A stretch of DNA of 64,000 bases. Origin: Olivibacter sp. XZL3 (GTDB taxonomy: Bacteria > Bacteroidota > Bacteroidia > Sphingobacteriales > Sphingobacteriaceae). Below are positions 36,541-48,561 of the stretch, in pieces; the stretch's first letter is position 1, and every line of letters starts with the position of its first letter. The translations under genes were made by a program, and so were the position numbers. The stretch is taken from assembly GCF_004368405.1 (NCBI RefSeq), contig NZ_SBJH01000008.1:186001-250000 (forward strand). The letters are read 5' to 3'. The notes beneath the pieces were generated by a model that was not told the DNA's origin, ran no database searches, and worked only from the letters and a program-made list of their open reading frames with translations.

Positions 36541-37728
36541 ATGGAAACGGCAAAGCTACTTCAAGCGATTATTCATAACGCTATCGACGGTATTATTACG
36601 ATCGACAATAAAGGAGTTGTCGAATCCATTAATCCGGCGGCGCTGTCTTTGTTTGGATATGAGCATGAAAGAGAAATCATCGGAAATAACGTTTCTGTAT
36701 TGATGCCTGAACCCGACCGCACCCGGCATGATTCCTACATTCACAACTACCTGACAACGGGCGTTAGGCATATCATTGGCATAGGTCGGGAGGTCCGAGG
36801 TAAGCGGAAAGACGGGTCGACATTCCCTTTTCGGTTAGCGGTGAGCGAGGTCAGCTATAGGGATAGGAAGATTTTTACGGGGTTCATTCATGATCTTTCC
36901 AGACAGAAAGAGGCCGAGGAAAAACTGAAAGAGTATACCGCGCAGTTGGAGAAGAAGGTTACCGAGCGGACAAAAGACTTAATTAAACTCATTAGCGAGC
37001 TGGAGGAGGCCAAGGCGGATGTCAGCCTGTCTTTGGAAAAAGAAAAAGATCTGAATCAGATGAAGTCCCGATTCGTTTCAATGGCATCGCACGAATTTAG
37101 AACGCCCTTGAGCTCCGTACAGCTTTCTGCCTCTTTAATTGAAAAGTACCTTGATAAACGCGATTTTGATAATATTACGAAACATACCAACAAAATTAAA
37201 GGATCCGTTCAGCTGCTTACGACTATTTTGAACGACTTCCTCTCGTTAGAGCGTTTAGAAGCCGGGAAAGTGACTGCTGTTCCGGAGGAGGTCAACATTG
37301 TCAAACTGGCAGAGGAAATTATTGAGGAGATGCAGCTTTTGGCAAAGCAAAATCAGCATATTGTTTATCAACATACCGGGGAAATCGGTACCTGCCGAAT
37401 TGATCCAAATCTCTTAAAAAACAGTATTATTAATCTGATTTCTAACGCTATTAAGTACTCGGGAGAAAATACTTTCATCGAATTTAATAGCGAAATACAA
37501 AAGGATCGCTGTATCATCACCGTTAAAGATAATGGGATTGGCATCCCCGACGATGAACAGAAAAGTTTATTTGAGCCCTTTTTCCGGGCTAATAATACGG
37601 GAAATATACCGGGAACCGGCTTAGGTTTGAATATTGTGAAGCGCTATGCCCATTTGATGGGGGGCGAAGTAACTTGTGTCAGTGAGATCAATAAAGGAAC
37701 AACCTTTACGCTCACCTTTAATAGCTGA
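36541..37728 (+). CDS. FixL-like heme-PAS sensor histidine kinase
   Basis: A 395-residue soluble kinase with no membrane segment. Residues 1-125 are a PAS domain with MPEPDRTRHDSYIHNY and IIGIGREV. Aligned by eye to rhizobial FixL, the heme-ligand histidine is His63 (FixL His200), with Tyr66 (203), His77 (214), Ile78 (215), Arg83 (220), Leu99 (236) and Val101 (conservative for Ile238). FixL Arg206 is replaced by Asn69. A coiled coil, the H box with His184 (SHEFRTP), and the N, G1 and G2 ATP-binding boxes follow. It lies 83 bases before a response regulator gene. I infer an oxygen sensor; O2 binding is unproven. Confidence 0.88.
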   Translation: METAKLLQAIIHNAIDGIITIDNKGVVESINPAALSLFGYEHEREIIGNNVSVLMPEPDRTRHDSYIHNYLTTGVRHIIGIGREVRGKRKDGSTFPFRLAVSEVSYRDRKIFTGFIHDLSRQKEAEEKLKEYTAQLEKKVTERTKDLIKLISELEEAKADVSLSLEKEKDLNQMKSRFVSMASHEFRTPLSSVQLSASLIEKYLDKRDFDNITKHTNKIKGSVQLLTTILNDFLSLERLEAGKVTAVPEEVNIVKLAEEIIEEMQLLAKQNQHIVYQHTGEIGTCRIDPNLLKNSIINLISNAIKYSGENTFIEFNSEIQKDRCIITVKDNGIGIPDDEQKSLFEPFFRANNTGNIPGTGLGLNIVKRYAHLMGGEVTCVSEINKGTTFTLTFNS

Positions 37729-37811
37729 TTTGACTGAGTGCGGCTAATGCACAAGGGGATAAAAATGCAGGTTTGGTTTCATAAGGTATTAAAAAAACAA
37801 ATTACTCTAGA

Positions 37812-38855
37812 ATGAAAACAGTATTAATTGTTGAAGACAACGATGATATTAGAGAAAGTACCGCCGAGATATTAACGCTCGCGGGATACAATGTCTTCAC
37901 TGCACCTGAAGGAAGATCGGGTGTTGATTTAGCGCTTAAATCGAAACCTGACATTATTCTCTGCGATATTATGATGCCTAATTTAGACGGTTATGGCGTT
38001 CTGTTTTTGCTGGGAAAGCACAAAGAAACGGCCGACATCCCCTTTATTTTCCTGACGGCAAAGGCCGAGCGTGCCGATATGCGCAAGGCGATGGAGATGG
38101 GCGCCGATGATTACCTTACAAAGCCTTTTGATGACGTAGAATTGCTCAATGCCATTGAAACCCGACTAAGAAAAAGAGACCTTACCGGCCATAAGCGAAG
38201 CTCCTACGCAATGAGCGAGGAAGATCAAAACAAGCTGCTTAATGATTTACACCTTAAAGGCAGGGCAAAGAGCTATAAAAAGAAACAAAGCGTTTACGAA
38301 GAGGGCGACAATCCCTTGTACATCTATCAGGTTAAATCAGGGAAAGTTAGAAGTTACCTCTTTTACCACGACGGCCGGGAATTGTCTACCAATATCTTTA
38401 CTGCCGGTGATTATTTCGGATACGAAGCCCTTCTGAGCCATGAAAAACATTCCGATAATACTGAAACGATCGAAGACAGTGAGATATCCTTAATTAATAA
38501 AGAGGTATTTTTTGAACTGTTGTATCAAAATCCTACGATCGCTCAAAAGTTTATCGGTCTCCTTTCTGAAAACATCAGAGGGAAAGACGAGCAATTATTA
38601 CGCTTGGCCTATCATTCCGTGCGAAAGCGTGTTGCTGATGCGCTGGTAGTTGTTGCAAGAAAATTTTTGGAAGACCGCGATGCCGATGAATGCTTGATTC
38701 GCATTTCAAGAGACGACCTGGCTGCCATGGCCGGTACGGCTAACGAAACGATCAGTAGAACCTTGGCGGATTTTAAAGACGAGCAATTACTGTCGAAAGA
38801 AGGGAACGCTATCCGGGTTCACTCTATTCAAAAGCTAAGTAATATCAAACAATAA
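37812..38855 (+). CDS. Response regulator with CRP/FNR-type output domain
   Basis: A 347-residue DNA-binding response regulator of unusual architecture. Residues 1-125 are a receiver with Asp52 as phospho-acceptor (LCDIMMP) and the FLTAKAERADMRKAMEMGADDYLTKPF signature. Then comes a cyclic-nucleotide-binding-type beta domain (YEEGDNPLYIYQVKSGKV to FGYEALL) and a CRP-type HTH (ISRDDLAAMAGTANETISRTLADF). The usual FixJ output is absent, so phosphorylation and FNR/FixK-type DNA binding are joined in one chain. No cysteine cluster for an Fe-S centre is seen. The PAS kinase upstream is its likely partner. Confidence 0.9.
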   Translation: MKTVLIVEDNDDIRESTAEILTLAGYNVFTAPEGRSGVDLALKSKPDIILCDIMMPNLDGYGVLFLLGKHKETADIPFIFLTAKAERADMRKAMEMGADDYLTKPFDDVELLNAIETRLRKRDLTGHKRSSYAMSEEDQNKLLNDLHLKGRAKSYKKKQSVYEEGDNPLYIYQVKSGKVRSYLFYHDGRELSTNIFTAGDYFGYEALLSHEKHSDNTETIEDSEISLINKEVFFELLYQNPTIAQKFIGLLSENIRGKDEQLLRLAYHSVRKRVADALVVVARKFLEDRDADECLIRISRDDLAAMAGTANETISRTLADFKDEQLLSKEGNAIRVHSIQKLSNIKQ

Positions 38856-38908
38856 GCCTAAACTATTTCTTTTCATTGCTAGGCTGACACAGGCTTATGC
38901 TGTAAACA

Positions 38909-38962
38909 GAAACGCATCATATAAAAAAGTAATGAGTATTACTTTTTTATATGATGCGTTTC
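38909..38962. promoter_or_regulatory. 25-bp perfect inverted repeat with 4-base loop
   Basis: Arms 38909-38933 and 38938-38962 are perfect reverse complements around gagt. The arms contain a 6-A / 6-T run, but there is no T tract after the hairpin, so it is a poor ordinary terminator. The inner dyad AGTAAT-gagt-ATTACT has the 4-base spacing of FNR/FixK-type operators (TTGAT-N4-ATCAA). Confidence 0.8.
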
Positions 38963-38979
38963 ATCTCTTTACAAGTTGG

Positions 38980-39011
38980 TTCCTTTTAGTTTTGTACGAA
39001 GCTAAAAGGAA
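38980..39011 (+). promoter_or_regulatory. Promoter element and 10-bp dyad before the cco series
   Basis: TTCCTTTTAG (38980-38989) and CTAAAAGGAA (39002-39011) form a perfect 10-bp dyad with a 12-base spacer. TAGTTTTG (38986-38993) within it matches the -7 consensus. There is no -33 TTTG, as expected for an activated promoter. The predicted start lies near 38997, about 61 bases after the centre of the upstream dyad. Confidence 0.5.
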
Positions 39012-39034
39012 TACTATTAACACAAACCAACACT

Positions 39035-39466
39035 ATGAAGGCCATCGCTTACAGCATAAATGTAAATGAAAAAGAGCACCTTGTCAGATCCAACGCGAAA
39101 ACGCACGACTTGACGCTTATCTCAAACGAGCTTAATGCTTCTACCCTGTCATATTGTGGTGGGAAAACCGTTATTATCGTATCCGGAAGGGATATTGTAG
39201 ACCAAGCGTTGCTTCGTTCTCTTAAACAAATGGGCGTTAGATATATCGTTACGCGATCGAAGACTACCACCCATATAGATCTGCAAAGCGCTGCACAACT
39301 GGGTATTAAAGTAGCCAACAACGCCAGTGACGACCAATCGATAGAAAATACCGCTAAACAAACTATCCGCAATTTAGACCTATGGGAAGCTGGGCGTTGC
39401 GTGGGCCATTCCTGCTGTTGTTACGATTGTAATAACGTAAAAAACAATAGTTCAAGCAAAGTTTAA
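39035..39466 (+). CDS. Truncated D-lactate-dehydrogenase-like domain with Cys-rich tail
   Basis: A 143-residue protein resembling only the N-terminal part of D-2-hydroxyacid dehydrogenases of the LdhA type: MKAIAYSINVNEKEHLVR, LLRSLKQMGVRYIVTRSKTT and HIDLQSAAQLGIKVANNAS. The NAD-binding domain and catalytic Arg/Glu/His are absent, so it cannot be a normal dehydrogenase. Instead it ends in RCVGHSCCCYDC (Cys122, His125, Cys127-129, Cys132), a likely metal, heme or redox site. It starts after the regulatory dyads and 9 bases before hemN, so it leads the hemN-cco series. A maturation or redox-sensing role is inference. Confidence 0.75.
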   Translation: MKAIAYSINVNEKEHLVRSNAKTHDLTLISNELNASTLSYCGGKTVIIVSGRDIVDQALLRSLKQMGVRYIVTRSKTTTHIDLQSAAQLGIKVANNASDDQSIENTAKQTIRNLDLWEAGRCVGHSCCCYDCNNVKNNSSSKV

Positions 39467-39475
39467 CCTGATGGC

Positions 39476-40828
39476 ATGGAAAAGCAGTTAATCGATTATA
39501 TTAAAAAATACAATATTGCCGCGCCACGTTACACCAGCTATCCGACCGTTCCGCATTGGGATACGGCGAGCTGGACAACGGGAGCCTGGATTTCGGCGGT
39601 TCAAAGCGCTGCACTGGAGTCGGCCGGCGAAGTAAGTCTGTATATACACCTACCCTATTGCGAACGGTTATGCACCTATTGTGGCTGCAACACGCGGATT
39701 ACCAAGAATCATCGTGTGGAACTTCCTTATATTGAATCTGTAATTAGCGAGTGGCGCCTATATTTGGAAAAATTGAATATAAAACCAAAAATAGTGGACC
39801 TCCATCTGGGCGGAGGTACGCCCACTTTTTTTAGTCCGGAAAACCTCGATTATCTAATTAAATCAATTTTACAAGAAGCGTCTGTTGGCGAGGATACAAC
39901 TTTTTCTTTTGAGGCGCATCCTGCAAACACCACGCGTGAGCATCTGGAAGTATTGTTCGCTTTAGGATTTCGGCGTTTAAGCTTAGGTATACAGGATTTT
40001 GATTCAGAGGTACAACGTATTATTAACCGTAAACAAAGTCCGGATGACGTGATCCGTGTTATGCAGGAGGCGCGGCATATCGGTTATACTTCCATCAATT
40101 TCGACTTGATCTATGGCCTGCCTAAACAGACGTTGGGGGGCATACGGGATACCATCCAACAGGCGATTGCCATGCACCCCGACCGAATTGCCTTTTACAG
40201 CTATGCGCATGTTCCATGGATCAAACCCGGACAGCGTTTGTATACCGAAAACGATCTGCCTTCGGACGAAGCTAAGTTAGCATTTTACTATGCCGGAAAG
40301 GAGATGATCATCAACGCGGGTTACCTTGACATTGGCATGGATCACTTCGCTTTTCCGACAGACAGTTTAGCACTGGCGGCAACGGAGGGAAAGCTCCACC
40401 GGAATTTTATGGGTTATACGGATATCAAACCCTCCTTGCTTTTAGGGCTGGGCGTTTCGTCCATCAGCGATGCTGGAGCGGCGTATGCACAGAACGTTAA
40501 AAGCGTGGAGGAATATCGTGCACTGCTAAGTAAAGGCGAGTTTCCACTTTTCAAAGGGCATATACAAACCGCCAGCGATATAGACGTGAAGAAACAGATT
40601 CTCCACATTATGTGCGATGGAAAGCTTCCTCTCTCGGAATTTCAGCTTCCAACTGAAGTGTTGAAAAGATTGGAGCCTTTGATAGCCGACGGCTTCGTTT
40701 TACTTGAGCCTCATCGGCTCAGGGTAACAGCACTTGGGAGGTCTTTTTTACGCATCATCTGTATGGCATTTGATGAACGGTACCACGCCAACGAAGTAGA
40801 TAGACCCTTATTTAGTAAAGCAGTATAG
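39476..40828 (+). CDS. hemN: Oxygen-independent coproporphyrinogen III oxidase
   Basis: A radical SAM enzyme that makes protoporphyrinogen IX without oxygen, supplying heme under low oxygen. In 450 residues the [4Fe-4S]-binding motif CxxxCxxC is at Cys62, Cys66 and Cys69 (YCERLCTYCGC). LHLGGGTPTFF and the C-terminal HemN helical region follow. The length fits HemN rather than the shorter HemW. It is followed after 2 bases by ccoI and preceded after 9 bases by the truncated dehydrogenase-like gene, so it belongs to the cbb3 operon. Confidence 0.95.
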   Translation: MEKQLIDYIKKYNIAAPRYTSYPTVPHWDTASWTTGAWISAVQSAALESAGEVSLYIHLPYCERLCTYCGCNTRITKNHRVELPYIESVISEWRLYLEKLNIKPKIVDLHLGGGTPTFFSPENLDYLIKSILQEASVGEDTTFSFEAHPANTTREHLEVLFALGFRRLSLGIQDFDSEVQRIINRKQSPDDVIRVMQEARHIGYTSINFDLIYGLPKQTLGGIRDTIQQAIAMHPDRIAFYSYAHVPWIKPGQRLYTENDLPSDEAKLAFYYAGKEMIINAGYLDIGMDHFAFPTDSLALAATEGKLHRNFMGYTDIKPSLLLGLGVSSISDAGAAYAQNVKSVEEYRALLSKGEFPLFKGHIQTASDIDVKKQILHIMCDGKLPLSEFQLPTEVLKRLEPLIADGFVLLEPHRLRVTALGRSFLRIICMAFDERYHANEVDRPLFSKAV

Positions 40829-40830
40829 CC

Positions 40831-43224
40831 ATGGATAAGTTGGAAACGGTACAAAAAGAGCAAACTTGTTTTCACTGCGGTGACGAGGTTAAACACCAAA
40901 CTTATGAAGTGGATAACCATCGCTTTTGTTGTCTTGGATGCAAAAGTGTTTACTTGCTATTAAATGAGCACCAATTGTCGCGTTATTATCAATACAATGC
41001 GCACCCCGGTAGCTCCGTAAAGGAAGAAGCCAACCGCTACTTCTATTTAGAAGAAGAAAACATTTCCAAAAGCCTGCTGGATTTTCAGGATGAGCGAATG
41101 AGTATTGTAACACTTTATATACCAGGTATCCATTGCAGTTCTTGCATCTGGTTGTTGGAGAGTCTCCACAAGCTTCATGCAGGAGTTGCCAGTTCCCGAA
41201 CTGATTTTTTACGCAAGGAAGTCCGTGTTACTTTTTATCACCAGCAGTTAAGTTTGAAACAATTAGTGGAATTATTGGCTTCAATTGGCTATCCGCCTGT
41301 GATCAGCTTGCAAGACACAACACAGGACAAAGTAGAGGAGCAAAAAAACCATCTTGTACGGAAGATTGCCGTCGCTGGCTTTTGTTTCGGCAACTCGATG
41401 ATGATTAGTTTTCCCGAATATTTTGGAATTGGCGCTTTTGAGAAAGACTATGCTCAATTGTTCGGTTGGATCAATTTAACATTTGCCTTACCTGTTATGT
41501 TCTATAGCGGAAGCGATTATTTCGTTTCTAGCTTAAAAAGTTTAAAACAGCGTCGCCTAAACTTAGACGTTCCTTTGGCGCTGGGAATTTTGATCCTTTT
41601 TGTGCGTTCCGCCTGGGAAATTCTAAATGGAACTGGCGCTGGCTTTTCGGACACGCTCTGCGGATTAATCTTCTTTTTATTGGTTGGCAGATGGGTACAG
41701 CAAAAGACCTATCATCATCTTTCCTTTGAGCGGGATTACCGCTCTTATTTTCCGGTAGCGGTTACAAAAATTCATGAAGGGCAGGAAAAAACGGTCGCGC
41801 TTGCCAACATACAGGTCGGTGATCGCATTTTGATCCGGAACAATGAGATCGTTCCGGCCGATGCCATCTTACTAAAGGGTCAGGCTTGCATTGATTTTAG
41901 TTTTGTTACGGGCGAGTCGGTTCCGGTTGAGAAAGTACTCGGTGAAATCATTTATGCCGGCGGTCGGCAAACCGAACAGATTATTGAGTTAGAGGTAGTA
42001 AAACCAGTATCACAAAGTTATTTAACCAGTCTATGGAACGCTCCCGAACAAGCGGAAAGGAAAGTCTTTTTTCAATCTTTTAGCAATAAAATTAGCCGTT
42101 ATTTTACACCAATTCTTCTGAGTATTGCCTTAGCAAGCGCATTCTTTTGGGGAAGCGCCGGTGATGCACAACGGGCCTGGTCGGCTTTTACAGCCGTTTT
42201 AATTATCGGTTGCCCCTGTGCATTGGCGCTGAGCTCTCCATTCACGCTTTCGGCTGTACTTAGCGTTTTTGACAGAAATGGTCTGTTTATGAAGGACACC
42301 TTGGCTATAGAAAAGATGGCTGAGATTAATACTCTCGTGTTCGATAAGACTGGAACAATCAGCACACTCAGCGACGACCGCTTTCACTTTGAGGGAAAAT
42401 TGACGGCAATGGAAGCGTCTATGGTGTTTTCTGTATGCCGTAATTCCAATCATCCGCAGAGTCGGAAGATCGCAAAGGCGTTCGGCGAAACTTGCCGGAT
42501 CCTACCGATGAGCTCTTACGTTGAGACGCCGGGAAGCGGAATTCAGGCTACCATAGCAGGCAAAGACATTTTAATTGGCAGCCGTTCGTTTGCTGCTACG
42601 GATAAGGATCTATTTAAAGTCGCCGGTACCTATGTACGTATTGACGGAGAAACCAAAGGTGTTTTTTGTGTAGAACAGAAGTGGCGGAGTGGCTTAGCAT
42701 CGGTGATTTCCAACTTGAGCCATGGGTATCGCCTGCATTTATTATCGGGAGATGGTGAAAAGGATGCAAAGGCTTTATCCTTACTTTTTCCTCACAAAGA
42801 ATATTTAAATTTTAATCAGTTGCCCGCCGATAAACTGTCTTATGTAGAAAAGTTACAGCACAACTGTCAAAAAGTGGCCATGATTGGTGATGGTTTGAAT
42901 GACGCAGGCGCTCTAAAAAGCGCGGATTTAGGTATTGCGGTAAGTGACGATGTTAATAATTTTTCGCCCGCATGTGATGCGATTATGAGCGGCGCATCCT
43001 TCGAAAAATTACCTCGGTTTTTTGGCTTTGCCAAGCGGGCGATGCGTATTATATACAGCAGTTTTGTGATTTCCCTTTTATATAACTTATTGGGTATGTA
43101 CTTTGCGACACAGGGCAGTTTATCTCCCTTGATTGCCGCTATCTTAATGCCGCTAAGTACAATTACGATTATAAGTTTCACGAGTCTGGCCACCCGGCTT
43201 TACGCTTATAAATATCATCTATAA
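40831..43224 (+). CDS. ccoI: CcoI-type copper P-type ATPase for cbb3 assembly
   Basis: A 797-residue P1B ATPase that delivers copper for the cbb3 oxidase binuclear centre. The N terminus has a CxxC-type zinc-finger-like domain (CFHCGDEV, then CCLGCKSVY) typical of CcoI/FixI. An HMA-like segment with GIHCSSCIWLLE, the TGES loop, the metal-site IIGCPCALALSS, DKTGTIST and GDGLNDAGAL follow. Its stop overlaps the ccoS start by one base (TAATG type), which supports coupled translation. Confidence 0.93.
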   Translation: MDKLETVQKEQTCFHCGDEVKHQTYEVDNHRFCCLGCKSVYLLLNEHQLSRYYQYNAHPGSSVKEEANRYFYLEEENISKSLLDFQDERMSIVTLYIPGIHCSSCIWLLESLHKLHAGVASSRTDFLRKEVRVTFYHQQLSLKQLVELLASIGYPPVISLQDTTQDKVEEQKNHLVRKIAVAGFCFGNSMMISFPEYFGIGAFEKDYAQLFGWINLTFALPVMFYSGSDYFVSSLKSLKQRRLNLDVPLALGILILFVRSAWEILNGTGAGFSDTLCGLIFFLLVGRWVQQKTYHHLSFERDYRSYFPVAVTKIHEGQEKTVALANIQVGDRILIRNNEIVPADAILLKGQACIDFSFVTGESVPVEKVLGEIIYAGGRQTEQIIELEVVKPVSQSYLTSLWNAPEQAERKVFFQSFSNKISRYFTPILLSIALASAFFWGSAGDAQRAWSAFTAVLIIGCPCALALSSPFTLSAVLSVFDRNGLFMKDTLAIEKMAEINTLVFDKTGTISTLSDDRFHFEGKLTAMEASMVFSVCRNSNHPQSRKIAKAFGETCRILPMSSYVETPGSGIQATIAGKDILIGSRSFAATDKDLFKVAGTYVRIDGETKGVFCVEQKWRSGLASVISNLSHGYRLHLLSGDGEKDAKALSLLFPHKEYLNFNQLPADKLSYVEKLQHNCQKVAMIGDGLNDAGALKSADLGIAVSDDVNNFSPACDAIMSGASFEKLPRFFGFAKRAMRIIYSSFVISLLYNLLGMYFATQGSLSPLIAAILMPLSTITIISFTSLATRLYAYKYHL

Positions 43225-43421
43225 TGAGCGCCATATTTTTTCTGATCGGTTGCAGCGTGCTGATTGCTTTACTGTTTTTAGGCGCCTTTATTTGGGCCAA
43301 TAAAAGCGGACAGCACGATGATACCTATACACCTGCTATTCGTGTTCTTTTCGAAGACGATTTCCCGTCTGAGGAGAAAGAACTTGATCGTCAGGTTAAC
43401 CTGGGCGAAGAAAATAAGTGA
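43224..43421 (+). CDS. ccoS: CcoS, cbb3 oxidase assembly protein
   Basis: A 65-residue single-pass membrane protein with helix FFLIGCSVLIALLFLGAFIWA. It is followed by the family's short acidic tail with VRVLFEDD-like (here IRVLFEDDFP). CcoS is needed for insertion of cofactors into the oxidase. It sits exactly where expected, overlapping ccoI and 83 bases before ccoNO. Confidence 0.92.
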   Translation: MSAIFFLIGCSVLIALLFLGAFIWANKSGQHDDTYTPAIRVLFEDDFPSEEKELDRQVNLGEENK

Positions 43422-43504
43422 CAACAATCATCTTTTTGCCCAATCGGCGTCACTCGTAAGGAAGTGGAGCCGATGTACCTTTACCGCTGTAAAAATACTA
43501 AACT

Positions 43505-45616
43505 ATGCACCTTGAAACATTTAATTACGATAACAAAATTGTAAGGAATTTCGGTATAGCAACCATTTTCTGGGGAATTGTCGGCATGTCAGTCGGCCTC
43601 CTGGTAGCTGTACAACTGGTATGGCCGTTCATGAATTTAAACAGTCCCTTTACCACCTTTGGACGCATTCGGCCTTTACACACCAATGCCGTTATTTTCG
43701 CCTTCGTAGGTAATGGCATTTTTATGGGGGTCTACTACTCGTTGCAGCGGCTTCTCAAAGCGCGGATGTATAGCGACCTACTGAGTCGCATTCACTTCTG
43801 GGGCTGGCAGCTCGTTATTTTGGCCGCCGCCATTACACTGCCACTGGGTTTTACCACATCACACGAGTATGCGGAGCTTGAATGGCCTATTGACATCGCT
43901 ATAACCCTTATTTGGGTGGTTTTTGGTATCAATATGTTCGGTACCATCATCAAAAGACGCGAGCGCCATATGTATGTGGCTATCTGGTTTTATATTGCGA
44001 CCTTTGTAACGATTGCGGTACTTCATATTGTAAACTCCGTTGAATTACCCATTTCGGCCTGGAAAAGTTACTATTTATATGCGGGTGTACAAGATGCTCT
44101 TGTACAATGGTGGTATGGTCATAACGCGGTCGCTTTCTTTTTGACAACCCCCTATTTGGGCATGATGTATTACTTTCTGCCTAAGATGGCCAATCGGCCA
44201 GTTTACTCGTATAAGCTTAGTATATTACATTTTTGGTCGCTCATCTTTATCTATATATGGGCCGGTCCGCACCATTTGTTATACACATCTTTGCCGGGTT
44301 GGGCGCAGTCATTAGGCGTTGTGTTTTCCATTATGCTCATTGCACCAAGTTGGGGAGGTATGATCAATGGCTTATTGACTTTACGCGGAGCGTGGGACAA
44401 AGTGCGTGCTGAACCTACCTTAAAGTTTATGGTCGTCGCCTTAACGGCTTATGGTATGGCCACTTTTGAAGGGCCTATGCTCTCTTTAAAGCAAGTAAAT
44501 GCCATTGCTCACTTTACCGACTGGATTGTTGCGCACGTGCATGTTGGCGCATTGGGCTGGAACGGTTTTATGACCTTCGCCATCTTATATTGGGCAATAC
44601 CGAGAATATACGGAACTACGTTATACTCTAAAAAATTAGCGAGCGTACACTTCTGGGTAGGTACCCTTGGCATTCTTTTTTACGCAATTCCGATGTATTG
44701 GGCGGCCGTGGTGCAAGGGCTTATGTGGAAAGAGTTTACTCCAGAAGGCGTTTTGAAGTACCCAAGCTTCTTAGCCACTACCCTACAAATTTTACCGATG
44801 CATATGTTACGGGCCGTTGGTGGTACGCTGTACCTGAGTGGTGCTTTATTGATGACATATAACCTCGTCCGTACGATGCGGAAAGGAAAGTTGATCGCAA
44901 ATGAACCTGCTGAAGCGATGGCTTTAGCGCCTCTTCGCGTCAACGAGAAATCTACACATAGAAGATTAGAGAGAAAGCCAGCACTTTTCATGGTTCTTGC
45001 GCTGATCGTTATACTGATTGGCGGTATGGTGGAAATGATGCCAACTTTTATGATCTCGTCCAATGTGCCCACGATTAGCAGCGTGAAACCTTATACGCCA
45101 CTGGAGCTTCAAGGGCGGGATATTTATATCCGGGAAGGCTGTGTAAACTGCCACTCGCAAACCATCCGTCCCTTCCGTTCAGAAACAGCCAGGTATGGCG
45201 AATACAGCAAAGCCGGTGAATTCGTATACGACCACCCTTTTCTCTGGGGATCAAAACGTACCGGGCCGGATCTGCATCGGGTGGGCAAAAAATATCCAAA
45301 CAAGTGGCATTATGATCATTTGATGGATCCTACTATTACTTCGCCCGGTAGTATTATGCCTCCTTATCCTTGGTTGATCAGTCAGGAATTGGATACAACT
45401 AGTACTTCCAGTAAAATCATTGCCATGCGTAAATTAGGCGTTCCGTACCCTGACGGGTATGAACAGCAAGCGAACGCCGATTTGGTTAAGCAGGCAAAGT
45501 TGATCGCCGATGACCTGAAAGAAAATCAGGTTGATGTAATGAGTGACCGAGAAATTATTGCCATCGTGGCCTATCTCCAGCGGTTAGGAACCGATATAAA
45601 AGTAGCTGAAAAATAG
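43505..45616 (+). CDS. ccoNO: Fused cbb3 oxidase subunits I and II (CcoN-CcoO)
   Basis: A 703-residue fusion. The N-terminal part (about residues 1-470) is the heme-copper subunit I: LHTNAVIFAFVGNG, YGHNAVAFFLTTPYLGMMYYFLPK and VHVGALGWNGF. The C-terminal part is CcoO, with a mono-heme site GCVNCH (Cys546, Cys549, His550), HRVGKKYPNKWHYDHL and SIMPPYPWL with the axial methionine region. In many bacteria these are two proteins; the fusion is a common state in Bacteroidota. It is the catalytic core of the high-affinity terminal oxidase used at low oxygen. Confidence 0.96.
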   Translation: MHLETFNYDNKIVRNFGIATIFWGIVGMSVGLLVAVQLVWPFMNLNSPFTTFGRIRPLHTNAVIFAFVGNGIFMGVYYSLQRLLKARMYSDLLSRIHFWGWQLVILAAAITLPLGFTTSHEYAELEWPIDIAITLIWVVFGINMFGTIIKRRERHMYVAIWFYIATFVTIAVLHIVNSVELPISAWKSYYLYAGVQDALVQWWYGHNAVAFFLTTPYLGMMYYFLPKMANRPVYSYKLSILHFWSLIFIYIWAGPHHLLYTSLPGWAQSLGVVFSIMLIAPSWGGMINGLLTLRGAWDKVRAEPTLKFMVVALTAYGMATFEGPMLSLKQVNAIAHFTDWIVAHVHVGALGWNGFMTFAILYWAIPRIYGTTLYSKKLASVHFWVGTLGILFYAIPMYWAAVVQGLMWKEFTPEGVLKYPSFLATTLQILPMHMLRAVGGTLYLSGALLMTYNLVRTMRKGKLIANEPAEAMALAPLRVNEKSTHRRLERKPALFMVLALIVILIGGMVEMMPTFMISSNVPTISSVKPYTPLELQGRDIYIREGCVNCHSQTIRPFRSETARYGEYSKAGEFVYDHPFLWGSKRTGPDLHRVGKKYPNKWHYDHLMDPTITSPGSIMPPYPWLISQELDTTSTSSKIIAMRKLGVPYPDGYEQQANADLVKQAKLIADDLKENQVDVMSDREIIAIVAYLQRLGTDIKVAEK

Positions 45617-45825: not shown

Positions 45826-46683
45826 ATGAACAATTTTTTATTACGGATAGATCCTGTCGCAGCTGTGGAAAACAGCCTTGGTAGCGGAAATATCCATCGG
45901 GATATCTTAATTATTACCCTTTTGGTAGTAGCCTTGCTTGTGTTGGTCGCAGCTGTTGTGTTGCACAAAGCGTTTAAGACCCTTATTCGTGTCACCATGC
46001 CCGAGATCGAGTTAAGCGAAGCCGCTAGCGCTAAGGCAAGAAAAGCGGAGCGACGTGAGCGCTTGAAAATGCGGTGGAACAAACTAATGGGACTGCGGCC
46101 CTTGGCAGAGGAAGAGGACTTATTGATTGACCATGCCTATGACGGTATTAAAGAATTGGACAATCCCACTCCAGTGTGGTTTATGGGACTTTTTTATGCA
46201 ACAATGGTCTTTGGTCTGGTTTACTTTTCCGTATATCATGTTTTTGGCTGGGGATTGAATCAGGACGACGAATATCAGCAGGAAATGTTAGTAGCGGAAA
46301 AGGAGCGTCAAGTATACCTGGCCAGTCAAGCCAATAATGTAGACGAAAACACGGTAGAAATAGACAATAGTGCCGAAATCTTGGCGGAAGGCAAGGCTGT
46401 ATTTAATCAAAATTGCGTTGCTTGCCATGGGGCGCTGGGCGAAGGCGGAATTGGACCTAACCTAACGGATGCCTACTGGTTACATGGCGGTAGCATTAAA
46501 GCCGTATTCAAGACAATTAAACGAGGTGTTCCGGATAAGGGTATGATTGCCTGGGAACAACAATTGTCGCCGGGACAGATCGCTCAAGTGGCCAATTACA
46601 TTTTGTCGCTGCAAGGTACCACGCCACCAAACGCTAAAGCGCCTCAGGGCGATCTCGATACAGAGGCGAGCGTGGTGAACTAA
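45826..46683 (+). CDS. ccoP: cbb3 oxidase subunit III (CcoP), mono-heme type
   Basis: A 285-residue membrane-anchored cytochrome c. It has an N-terminal segment with a hydrophobic helix (ILIITLLVVALLVLVAAVVL), a second hydrophobic region near residues 125-145 and a single c-type heme site NCVACH (Cys197, Cys200, His201), with the axial methionine in DKGMIAWEQQL. Proteobacterial CcoP has two hemes; this has one, common in Bacteroidota. It passes electrons from a soluble or membrane cytochrome to CcoO. Confidence 0.93.
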   Translation: MNNFLLRIDPVAAVENSLGSGNIHRDILIITLLVVALLVLVAAVVLHKAFKTLIRVTMPEIELSEAASAKARKAERRERLKMRWNKLMGLRPLAEEEDLLIDHAYDGIKELDNPTPVWFMGLFYATMVFGLVYFSVYHVFGWGLNQDDEYQQEMLVAEKERQVYLASQANNVDENTVEIDNSAEILAEGKAVFNQNCVACHGALGEGGIGPNLTDAYWLHGGSIKAVFKTIKRGVPDKGMIAWEQQLSPGQIAQVANYILSLQGTTPPNAKAPQGDLDTEASVVN

Positions 46684-46709: not shown

Positions 46710-48104
46710 ATGAAGAGCACGTCTTTATCGGTTGATGCGCAAAAGGAAAAGCGTCGGTGGATCTACGCCAAAAAAGTGTCGGGCAGTTATTTCGCATATA
46801 GGCAATACGTCGGATACACTTTATTAGCATTGCTCCTATCGGCGCCCTTCCTTAAAATAGGTGGAGAGCCATTGCTTATGTTCAAAATTATTGAGCGCAA
46901 GTTCTTTGTCTTCGGTTCGGTTTTCTATCCGCAGGATCTGCACATTTTCGTGTTTGGAATGCTGATTGCCATGGTTTGTATTGTGCTATTTACGGTAGTA
47001 TATGGTAGGATCTGGTGCGGTTGGGCTTGTCCGCAAACCATTTTTATGGAGTTAATTTTCCGACGTATAGAGTACTGGATCGAGGGTGATGCGAATCAAC
47101 AGCGACGGCTGAACAAGGGGAGTTGGACAAAGGAAAAACTTATAAAAAAGGTATCGAAGCATGCTGTCTTCTTTTTGATTTCCTTTCTGATTGCGAACCT
47201 TTTTTTAAGCTATATCATTGGCGTTGATGCACTTGTAGGCATCATCACTGATCCTGTGCAAAGTCATTTTGCCGGTTTTGTGTCCATCATGTTGTTTACG
47301 CTCGTCTTTTATGCGGTATTTGCCTTTGCGAGGGAAATAGTATGCACCACTATTTGTCCTTACGGCCGATTGCAAGGTGTGCTTTTAGACGACCAAAGCA
47401 TTTCTGTCGCATATCACTATAGGCGTGGAGAGCCTCGCGGTAGCATTCGAAAAGCGCAGGCGGACAAAACGCTGGGGGATTGTGTGGACTGCAACTTATG
47501 TGTTCAGGTCTGTCCTACCGGAATAGATATCAGAAACGGAATACAGATGGAATGCATTAATTGCACGGCCTGTATGGACGCCTGTGACGGTGTTATGGAG
47601 AAGGTTCGCCGACCGAAAGGACTGATAGGGTTCTATTCGCAAAAGGAAATCGAATTTGGCCCTGAACGGAAGAAGAATGTGCGAGCCATTGCGTACAGCG
47701 TAGTATTATTGGTGCTCGTCGGAATTTTTTGCGGTTTGATCTTAAATAGAAGTGTTGTGGACGGAACCTTACTCAGAGCGAGCGGCACCAGCTATATTTT
47801 CAGAGATGATGGGACGGTGACCAATTTATATAATATGGAACTTACGAACAAGTCGTCTAAGAAGATTCCTTTTGGGATCAGCAGTGCAGACAGACGCTTT
47901 CAGGTACAAGTGTTGAGCGATAAAAAGATGTTGGCTGCAGGCGAAACGCTGCGATTTTCTCTATTCCTTATTATACCGAAAAAAGAAGTTGGCACCTACA
48001 AAACCAGCGTGAAGCTCTGTATCGGCTCCGAAGGAAAGGTGATAAAGAAAATGAAAACGAACTTCGTGGCGCCTCCGGTAGCTCAGCAAAGAGGGGCGAA
48101 CTGA
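46710..48104 (+). CDS. ccoG: CcoG (RdxA/FixG), cbb3 maturation ferredoxin-like protein
   Basis: A 464-residue membrane protein with several helices, a WCGWACPQT motif near residue 105, and an Fe-S region CVDCNLCVQVCPTGIDIRNG plus ECINCTACMDACD, two 4Fe-4S clusters. A periplasmic immunoglobulin-like C-terminal part follows. CcoG acts with copper chaperones in cbb3 assembly, reported as a Cu(II) reductase in Proteobacteria. It is in line with ccoP (26-base gap). Confidence 0.94.
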   Translation: MKSTSLSVDAQKEKRRWIYAKKVSGSYFAYRQYVGYTLLALLLSAPFLKIGGEPLLMFKIIERKFFVFGSVFYPQDLHIFVFGMLIAMVCIVLFTVVYGRIWCGWACPQTIFMELIFRRIEYWIEGDANQQRRLNKGSWTKEKLIKKVSKHAVFFLISFLIANLFLSYIIGVDALVGIITDPVQSHFAGFVSIMLFTLVFYAVFAFAREIVCTTICPYGRLQGVLLDDQSISVAYHYRRGEPRGSIRKAQADKTLGDCVDCNLCVQVCPTGIDIRNGIQMECINCTACMDACDGVMEKVRRPKGLIGFYSQKEIEFGPERKKNVRAIAYSVVLLVLVGIFCGLILNRSVVDGTLLRASGTSYIFRDDGTVTNLYNMELTNKSSKKIPFGISSADRRFQVQVLSDKKMLAAGETLRFSLFLIIPKKEVGTYKTSVKLCIGSEGKVIKKMKTNFVAPPVAQQRGAN

Positions 48105-48135: not shown

Positions 48136-48561
48136 ATGAACTGGGGAATGAAGATTGTAATAGGGATGGCATTAGCCATGTCATCCATTGTAGCTACCGG
48201 CATTTACATGGTAAGCAAAGACACAGACAGTTTGGAAGAGGCAGATTATTACGAAAAGGGTTTAAACTATGAACAAGCCTATGAAAAGAAAGAGAACGTT
48301 GTTCGCTATCAGCGGAAAGTGAGTTTAGACATTTTGGGTGACAGCTTGGTGATTTCGTTTGCCGAAGTCAACAATAAAGGGACGATTGAATTCTTAAGAC
48401 CTTCCAACAGGTCATTAGACCAACAAATCCCGTTTTCTACCCTACAGTCGTCCTACACAGTTCCCCTCGGCCGCCTTAAGCAAGGCTTATGGCATATTAA
48501 GTTAAGTTGGGAAAGTAATACGAGATCTTATTTCCAGGAGGAAAATCTGTATTTAAATTAA
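48136..48561 (+). CDS. ccoH: CcoH/FixH-like protein
   Basis: A 141-residue membrane protein with one N-terminal helix (MKIVIGMALAMSSIVATGIYM). A periplasmic domain follows, with SLEEADYYEKGLNYEQAYEKKENV, the family motif. CcoH helps stabilise the cbb3 complex. It sits 31 bases after ccoG and before the SafE-type gene, the usual order. Confidence 0.9.
   Translation: MNWGMKIVIGMALAMSSIVATGIYMVSKDTDSLEEADYYEKGLNYEQAYEKKENVVRYQRKVSLDILGDSLVISFAEVNNKGTIEFLRPSNRSLDQQIPFSTLQSSYTVPLGRLKQGLWHIKLSWESNTRSYFQEENLYLN

Follow-up and report, generated by a model that had tools for sequence, protein, structure and literature searches.

How do aerobic Bacteroidia adjust their high-affinity cbb3 oxidase to the supply of oxygen? 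The question is raised by a locus in the window, i.e. the whole 64-kb stretch of DNA analysed here, where a FixL-like histidine kinase and a receiver-CRP protein are encoded close to hemN and the cco genes. In the open-access literature, as far as its texts were accessible to us, we found no description of an O2 regulator of cbb3 oxidase in aerobic Bacteroidia, which may exist elsewhere. Searches of the same partly accessible texts for FixL in Bacteroidetes, Bacteroidota or Sphingobacteriaceae and for receiver-CRP regulators did not turn up this circuit either. In the available sections, CRP/FNR proteins of Flavobacteriales and Saprospiraceae are predicted to be carbon-sensing and MalR-like rather than O2-sensing (PMC8510549), and a fixL annotation and a cbb3 oxidase are mentioned in a section on Ignavibacteria and Phycisphaerae (PMC9083452). 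The parts of the system presented here are of known kinds; what appears to be new is how they are combined and how widely, together with the geometry of the promoters and the alternation with cysteine FNRs.

The locus and its two regulatory proteins

The features of the locus are the following:

36541..37728, + strand: FixL-like histidine kinase, 395 aa; intact ORF with Pfam PAS, HisKA and HATPase_c
36556-36894, 37060-37266 and 37402-37719, + strand: its PAS (residues 6-118), HisKA (174-242) and HATPase_c (288-393) domains according to Pfam
36727..36729, + strand: His63 codon; in the alignment His63 pairs with His200, the proximal heme ligand in B. japonicum FixL
37812..38855, + strand: response regulator, 347 aa; intact ORF with receiver, cNMP fold and Crp HTH
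37821-38159, 38268-38528 and 38628-38843, + strand: its receiver (Response_reg, residues 4-116), cNMP-binding fold (cNMP_binding, 153-239) and Crp-type HTH (HTH_Crp_2, 273-344) according to Pfam
37965-37967, + strand: Asp52 codon of the regulator
38927..38944, + strand: hemN-unit operator AAGTAATGAGTATTACTT; 8/10 consensus positions, with aligned sites in relatives
38987..38994, + strand: -7 box TAGTTTTG of the Bacteroidota type, 51 bp from the hemN-unit dyad centre
39035..39466, + strand: gene 1 of the hemN unit, 143 aa, catalytic-domain half of a D-2-hydroxyacid dehydrogenase
39476..40828, + strand: hemN, oxygen-independent coproporphyrinogen III oxidase (TIGR00538, above cut-off)
40831..43224, + strand: ccoI-like heavy-metal P-type ATPase
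43224..43421, + strand: ccoS-like short ORF, 65 aa, between ccoI and ccoNO (read by eye)
43416..43433, + strand: ccoNO operator AAGTGACAACAATCATCT; 9/10 positions; the ccoS-like ORF has its stop codon within this site
43476..43483, + strand: -7 box TACCTTTA, 5/6 positions, 51 bp from the ccoNO dyad centre
43505..45616, + strand: ccoNO fusion gene, cbb3 oxidase subunits I/II (PRK14485 and TIGR00780, above cut-off)
45826..46683, + strand: ccoP, cbb3 oxidase subunit III (FixP_N and Cytochrome_CBB3, above cut-off)
46710..48104, + strand: ccoG, oxidase accessory protein (TIGR02745, above cut-off)
48136..48561, + strand: FixH/ccoH family protein (PF05751)

The first-pass annotation had placed the kinase and regulator ahead of hemN and the cco genes, and the gene annotation agrees. 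It adds the gene at 39035-39466 between regulator and hemN, and the ccoS-like ORF at 43224-43421. The ccoP product remains below the cut-off of TIGR00782 (115.7 vs 179.95 bits), and downstream of ccoH a DsbD-type membrane protein is encoded. Olivibacter jilunii is the nearest named relative found (89% identity for the kinase, 84% for the regulator). The product of 39035-39466 carries a cysteine-rich tail and lacks the NAD-binding domain. In 10 loci (Mucilaginibacter, Daejeonella and MAGs; e.g. L071) a full-length dehydrogenase replaces this half-protein, 9 of the 10 with the same tail, and the window's genome encodes a full-length relative elsewhere that is 43% identical to it.

The PAS domain of the kinase aligns with that of BjFixL (1dp6, PDB set) at E 1.5e-35 with a single one-residue gap, and the DosP chains of the set are much more distant (E 1e-13 to 1e-15). 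This alignment confirms the heme-pocket matches that had been proposed: H63, Y66, H77, I78, R83 and L99 correspond to FixL H200, Y203, H214, I215, R220 and L236. Asn69 falls on FixL R206 as claimed, but it is no special change: among 44 FixL-like kinases, that of the window included, the position holds Arg in 29, Asn in 11 and Lys in 4, and the Asn of the window's kinase is ordinary family variation. The H214 position is similarly variable (H 21, R 8, K 7, N 4, S 4). The proximal ligand H200 and the distal Arg R220 are invariant in all 44, as are G217, G219, F232 and L236; 42 of them have Y203 and 43 have I215. In FixL the distal Arg stabilises bound O2, and the pocket residues are taken here with their FixL functions in ligand binding. 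The putative phospho-acceptor H184 is invariant in a 30-row kinase alignment.

Like FixL, the kinase appears to link a heme-PAS domain with the same pocket residues to HisKA and HATPase domains. Unlike FixL, it scores well below the cut-off of the FixL equivalog NF041777 (175.5 vs 850 bits), has no membrane domain among its Pfam matches and is paired with a partner other than FixJ. A fold search with the kinase model (pLDDT 80.6, pTM 0.50) returned mostly kinase cores among the best 50 matches and no FixL PAS chain. Having the homologous PAS, proximal His, distal Arg and hydrophobic pocket by which a FixL sequence is recognised, the kinase is probably a FixL-type heme-PAS sensor, as far as sequence can tell.

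The regulator joins a receiver to a CRP/FNR chain as had been proposed, with Response_reg, cNMP_binding and HTH_Crp_2 in one polypeptide and the recognition helix NETISR. Asp52 is invariant in alignments of 14 and of 30 regulators; in the latter, D9 and K104 are invariant as well and T82 is found in at least 90%. The protein thus has the make-up of a response regulator with CRP output: a receiver with conserved Asp and Lys, a cNMP fold and a Crp HTH in a single chain. However, the FNR-type sensor chain ascribed to it is not there, the FNR cysteines being absent. None of 30 receiver-CRP proteins has Cys at the FNR-aligned positions 11, 14, 23, 39 and 60, of which 11, 14 and 23 fall in the receiver-CRP linker, where the alignment is loose; at position 113 Cys is retained in 15 of the 30. 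Against the FixK family NF050806 the regulator, which also has a receiver, scores 85.1 bits (cut-off 300). FixJ consists of a receiver and a LuxR/GerE-type HTH, and the cNMP_binding plus HTH_Crp_2 output places the regulator outside that definition. In a fold search with the regulator model (pLDDT 83.9, pTM 0.41) the best 50 matches rest on the receiver. The suggestion that FixJ and FixK had been merged here gives way to a class-wide family, present in 98 of 197 sampled Bacteroidia genomes; we would describe the regulator as an FNR that takes its input from a receiver rather than as a merged FixJ/FixK.

Several known systems share parts of this arrangement. In Caulobacter and rhizobia, FixLJ raises hemN and high-affinity oxidases, according to the available part of PMC7078487. 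In the FixJ-FixK cascade, as outlined in the sections of PMC7888657 at hand, FixL phosphorylates FixJ and FixJ induces fixK. Here, too, the phosphate signal would end on a CRP/FNR-fold activator of oxidase genes, but one polypeptide replaces two proteins and one transcription step, the output is a Crp HTH and the operator is other than TTGAT-N4-ATCAA. With FNR and FnrN the regulator shares the fold, the operator type and the place beside cco; it differs in that no FNR cysteines stand near its CRP fold and that a receiver precedes the fold instead. The same sections of PMC7888657 report that FixK and the cysteine sensor FnrN of rhizobia use one operator. They also describe the hFixL-FxkR-FixK system of Rhizobium leguminosarum, in which an oxygen kinase likewise acts upstream of a CRP-type fixNOQP activator, but which consists of three proteins with FxkR as a separate regulator acting on the K-box.

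Distribution of the pair and a second class of kinases

The regulator family was counted in the sampled genomes at E ≤ 1e-40; among the 98 positive genomes are one with a match only at a contig end (G142) and one with a match in two pieces (G054). In the latter the receiver and CRP parts are two neighbouring matches (C1:1599608-1600661), perhaps reflecting a split or a frameshift in the fusion gene. In 76 of 80 named loci the regulator is directly preceded by a kinase-related ORF, including one kinase in pieces (L066), two that are longer or only partly alike (L092, L122) and one cut by a contig end (L073). This adjacency is beyond chance. Among the other four loci, L118 shows only a kinase tail at the contig edge, L061 breaks off within the regulator, and L065 and L113 are rearranged. 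In these last two the cco cluster lies between the kinase relative and the regulator, not beside the pair.

A ccoN gene above the family cut-off is present in 113 of the 197 genomes. It occurs in 74 of the 98 genomes with the regulator vs 39 of the 99 others (Fisher p 3.5e-7, kinship ignored). In the 74 genomes with both, ccoN and the regulator share a contig in 37 and lie within 15 kb in 28. Considering named loci of at least 19 kb, ccoNO, ccoP or ccoG is seen in 21 of 37 FixL-like and 9 of 20 second-class loci, and none of the three is seen in the remaining 16 and 11, respectively.

The second class comprises 33 further loci in which the regulator-linked kinase carries a different PAS domain; classes were assigned by sequence pattern, leaving L061, L065, L113 and L118 unassigned. 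Mean identity to the FixL PAS is 25% for this class and 47% for the FixL-like class. Within the FixL-like class identity is 69% for both PAS and kinase core, and within the second class 49% and 53%; between the two classes it amounts to 30% for the PAS and 49% for the kinase core. Judged by these identities, the sensor domain has changed far more than the kinase core, by exchange or rapid divergence. Leaving aside L066 and L092, all 31 second-class kinases compared retain the His and 10 of them the distal Arg; many members of this class adjoin cco even though they mostly miss this Arg. In L064, L070, L074, L077 and others, a PAS with the conserved His and a motif RxMG, usually without the distal Arg, stands next to the same regulator.

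Operator, promoter geometry and the candidate proteins to read them

In these loci we found an operator, AAnTGA-N6-TCAnTT, whose centre is separated by 51-52 bp from a downstream TAnnTTTG, which we take to be the Bacteroidota -7 box consensus. Unsupervised dyad scans upstream of ccoN gave AGTGA-N6-TCACT in 4 of 16 FixL-like loci and ACTGA-N6-TCAGT in 3 of 10 second-class loci, with shuffle maxima of 1-2. In 73 site-bearing regions the box lies at 51 bp in 53 and at 52 bp in 10, where 0.8 would be expected for each.

For counts per gene, a module was defined by at least 8/10 operator positions, at least 5/6 positions of TAnnTTTG and a spacing of 51-52 bp; motif and spacing were derived on the same loci, and expectations from mononucleotide shuffles are 0.05-0.25 each. 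By this measure, the module precedes ccoN in 16 of 16 FixL-like loci (expected 0.1), and 38 of 39 have it ahead of the gene that opens the hemN unit (expected 0.05). It further occurs upstream of the kinase in 13 of 43, of hemN itself in 1 of 31 and of ccoG in 1 of 22, and upstream of the regulator (0/44) and ccoI (0/13) there is none. The second-class loci carry it at ccoN (9/10), the kinase (8/30) and ccoI (4/9), with none at the regulator (0/33) or ccoG (0/9).

In 113 ccoN upstream regions taken from the sampled genomes instead of the named loci, a set that contains the region from the window and may overlap with the loci in species, the module was found in 38 of 74 from genomes with the regulator (expected 1.7) and in 17 of 39 from genomes without it (expected 0.7). 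When all spacings from 20 to 89 were scanned, two peaks emerged, at 51 (49 regions, 34 with and 15 without the regulator) and at 29 (45 regions, 24 and 21); the next-best spacings reach 8 regions. If the box spans about -12 to -5, the site centres would fall at about -63 and -41, positions that resemble those of class I and class II CRP/FNR sites.

In the window, modules are formed by 38927-38944 with 38987-38994 ahead of the hemN unit and by 43416-43433 with 43476-43483 ahead of ccoNO; the region upstream of the window's own kinase has none. A + strand scan of the window gave five module hits, three of them outside cco/hemN at 1176, 10456 and 11183, and single hits are therefore no proof. The FixK-type box TTGAT-N4-ATCAA shows no enrichment in the window (allowing 2 mismatches, 60 matches vs 51.5 expected, and 12 of 100 shuffles reach 60). 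At this tolerance none lies in 43433-43505 or 38856-39035. Between the regulator and the gene at 39035-39466 we noted an AT-rich inverted repeat (38910-38961, arms of about 24 bp by eye) with the hemN-unit operator at its centre, and a further 8/10 dyad at about 38949-38966 that has no box at 51.

Covariation between recognition helix and operator base was considered as proof of binding and set aside as a trend only, as operator position 5 follows the helix loosely. The base is G 36, A 32, C 17 and T 7 times for helices with Ser, and C 17, A 10, T 2 and G 1 times for those with Ile, counted on related sequences after dropping sites below 9/10 and 21 regulators with an unmatched helix. The operator also fails as a marker of regulator presence: sites of at least 9/10 occur in 18 of 74 genomes with and 9 of 39 without it (Mann-Whitney p 0.62). 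Since the operator is equally frequent without the fusion, the site alone is no proof of what binds it.

Where ccoN occurs without the fusion, the highest-scoring CRP match in the genome mostly has some 235 residues and a CxxC close to its N-terminus (26 of 30 loci). Its helix is mostly TE[TS]xIR, like that of second-class regulators, and two further Cys are invariant in 18 aligned sequences. Counting only matches that start near the N-terminus of the FNR profile, down to about E 1e-66, and thereby dropping later-starting ones (e.g. G020, G028, G103 and G106), we find a stand-alone cysteine FNR in 34 of 39 ccoN genomes without the fusion vs 23 of 74 with it (Fisher p 9e-9, kinship ignored), though the profile rests on 18 of the 30 loci from regulator-less genomes, chosen with CxxC, which favours finds there. 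A looser count, the fairer bound, gives a further FNR-profile match in 54 of the 74 genomes with fusion and ccoN and none at E ≤ 1e-20 in 20, the window's included. Within 15 kb of ccoN, the fusion is found in 28 genomes, the stand-alone FNR in 21 and both in 0 (p 0.0017, kinship ignored). By eye, the ccoN-linked fusion spans 16 families and the FNR 8, and two families (f3, f19) have both kinds.

The window's genome contains one FNR-profile match at E ≤ 1e-20, taken to be the regulator. The sole other Crp-HTH protein over the cut-off has the helix RVVVSR without Glu, and the fusion is therefore the best candidate for reading the operator there. The ExxSR helix is absent from the other cNMP/Crp proteins read in this genome, two of which were read incompletely.

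Proposed circuit and competing readings

Of the oxygen-responsive circuit put forward in the first-pass annotation, the FixL-type PAS sequence, the receiver-CRP fusion and the linkage to cco and hemN stand, now together with their promoters, while the FNR-type sensor chain and the local FixJ/FixK merger do not, and a FixK box finds no support in the window either. We favour, with a probability of roughly three in four, a two-component O2 switch for the high-affinity cbb3 oxidase in which a heme-PAS kinase signals to a receiver-FNR activator. O2 would be sensed by the kinase through its FixL-type heme-PAS domain, and O2 bound to the heme would hold the kinase off. With falling O2 the kinase would autophosphorylate on H184 and phosphorylate D52 of the regulator; the sign and direction of this control are taken from FixL, as described in the accessible part of PMC7078487. 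Phosphorylation of the receiver would enable the CRP/FNR part to occupy AAnTGA-N6-TCAnTT, which lies 51 bp ahead of TAnnTTTG, and from this class-I-like position ccoNO and the hemN unit, in some relatives also the pair's own operon, would be activated. In effect, the regulator could be an FNR whose iron-sulfur input has been swapped for a phospho-receiver. Several of the above results weigh against this reading: the operator is no rarer where the regulator is missing, 54 of 74 genomes with regulator and ccoN have a further FNR-profile match, many loci show no cco genes, the window's own kinase lacks a module, three of the five module hits in the window lie away from cco/hemN, the operator base follows the recognition helix loosely, and second-class kinases beside cco mostly miss the distal Arg.

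The same two proteins could form a heme-PAS two-component system for which NO, CO or the redox state of the heme is the signal, control of hemN and cco then being one part of a nitrosative or redox response. Known heme-PAS proteins serve several ligands with the same fold, H214 and R206 vary in the family, and the second-class kinases keep the His mostly without the Arg, several of them beside cco. We nevertheless consider this unlikely in view of the distal Arg in 44 of 44 FixL-like sequences and of the promoter targets, a high-affinity oxidase and a unit with an oxygen-independent hemN. Alternatively, the cco and hemN promoters might be read mainly by another CRP/FNR-family protein, in which case the regulator would have its targets elsewhere and its linkage to cco would be incidental. 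The equal frequency of the operator in genomes without the regulator and the additional FNR-profile match in 54 of 74 genomes would agree with such a reader, but the window's genome offers only the one match besides a Glu-less RVVVSR helix, and fusion and stand-alone FNR never meet within 15 kb of ccoN, so that we judge it quite unlikely. That the kinase is a constitutive or housekeeping enzyme despite its FixL-like sequence, and the regulator works mainly via a small ligand in its cNMP-binding fold, seems very improbable to us: the fold is present, but D9, D52 and K104 are invariant, T82 nearly so, and the two ORFs are adjacent almost throughout.

If the two-component O2 switch is real, roughly every second Bacteroidia genome of the sample has a two-protein system that skips one transcription step of the rhizobial cascade. 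Bacteroidia would then show a natural swap of iron-sulfur vs heme-kinase sensing at one type of promoter, and the two kinds of sensor could be studied side by side on identical target genes, where the promoter positions to mutate are known exactly. A broader idea, which we put forward only tentatively, is that the cco promoter of Bacteroidia is a fixed socket (a single FNR-type DNA-binding output, phase-locked sites 51 or 29 bp from TAnnTTTG) for interchangeable O2 inputs: iron-sulfur FNR, receiver-FNR with a FixL-type kinase, or receiver-FNR with the second PAS class (His, usually no distal Arg). The receiver-FNR might then descend from a cysteine FNR, the CRP-domain tree being unrooted, and the cysteine-tailed dehydrogenase remnant might feed back on the circuit as the four-Cys FixT does on FixL.

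Naming a regulon by a genome-wide operator scan proved too unspecific (370 matches with up to 1 mismatch vs 192 for the reversed pattern). The combined operator and promoter pattern gave 40 matches vs 15 in the control, of which 30 of 40 were inspected; besides those at ccoN and the hemN unit, L330, L332, L340 and others also precede an ORF. In L346, from the window's own genome (C97:216364-216431), the operator lies 51 bp from TACCTTTG and a start codon follows 23 bp downstream. The gene, named by eye as a zinc-type alcohol dehydrogenase and picked for its function, is a candidate further target.
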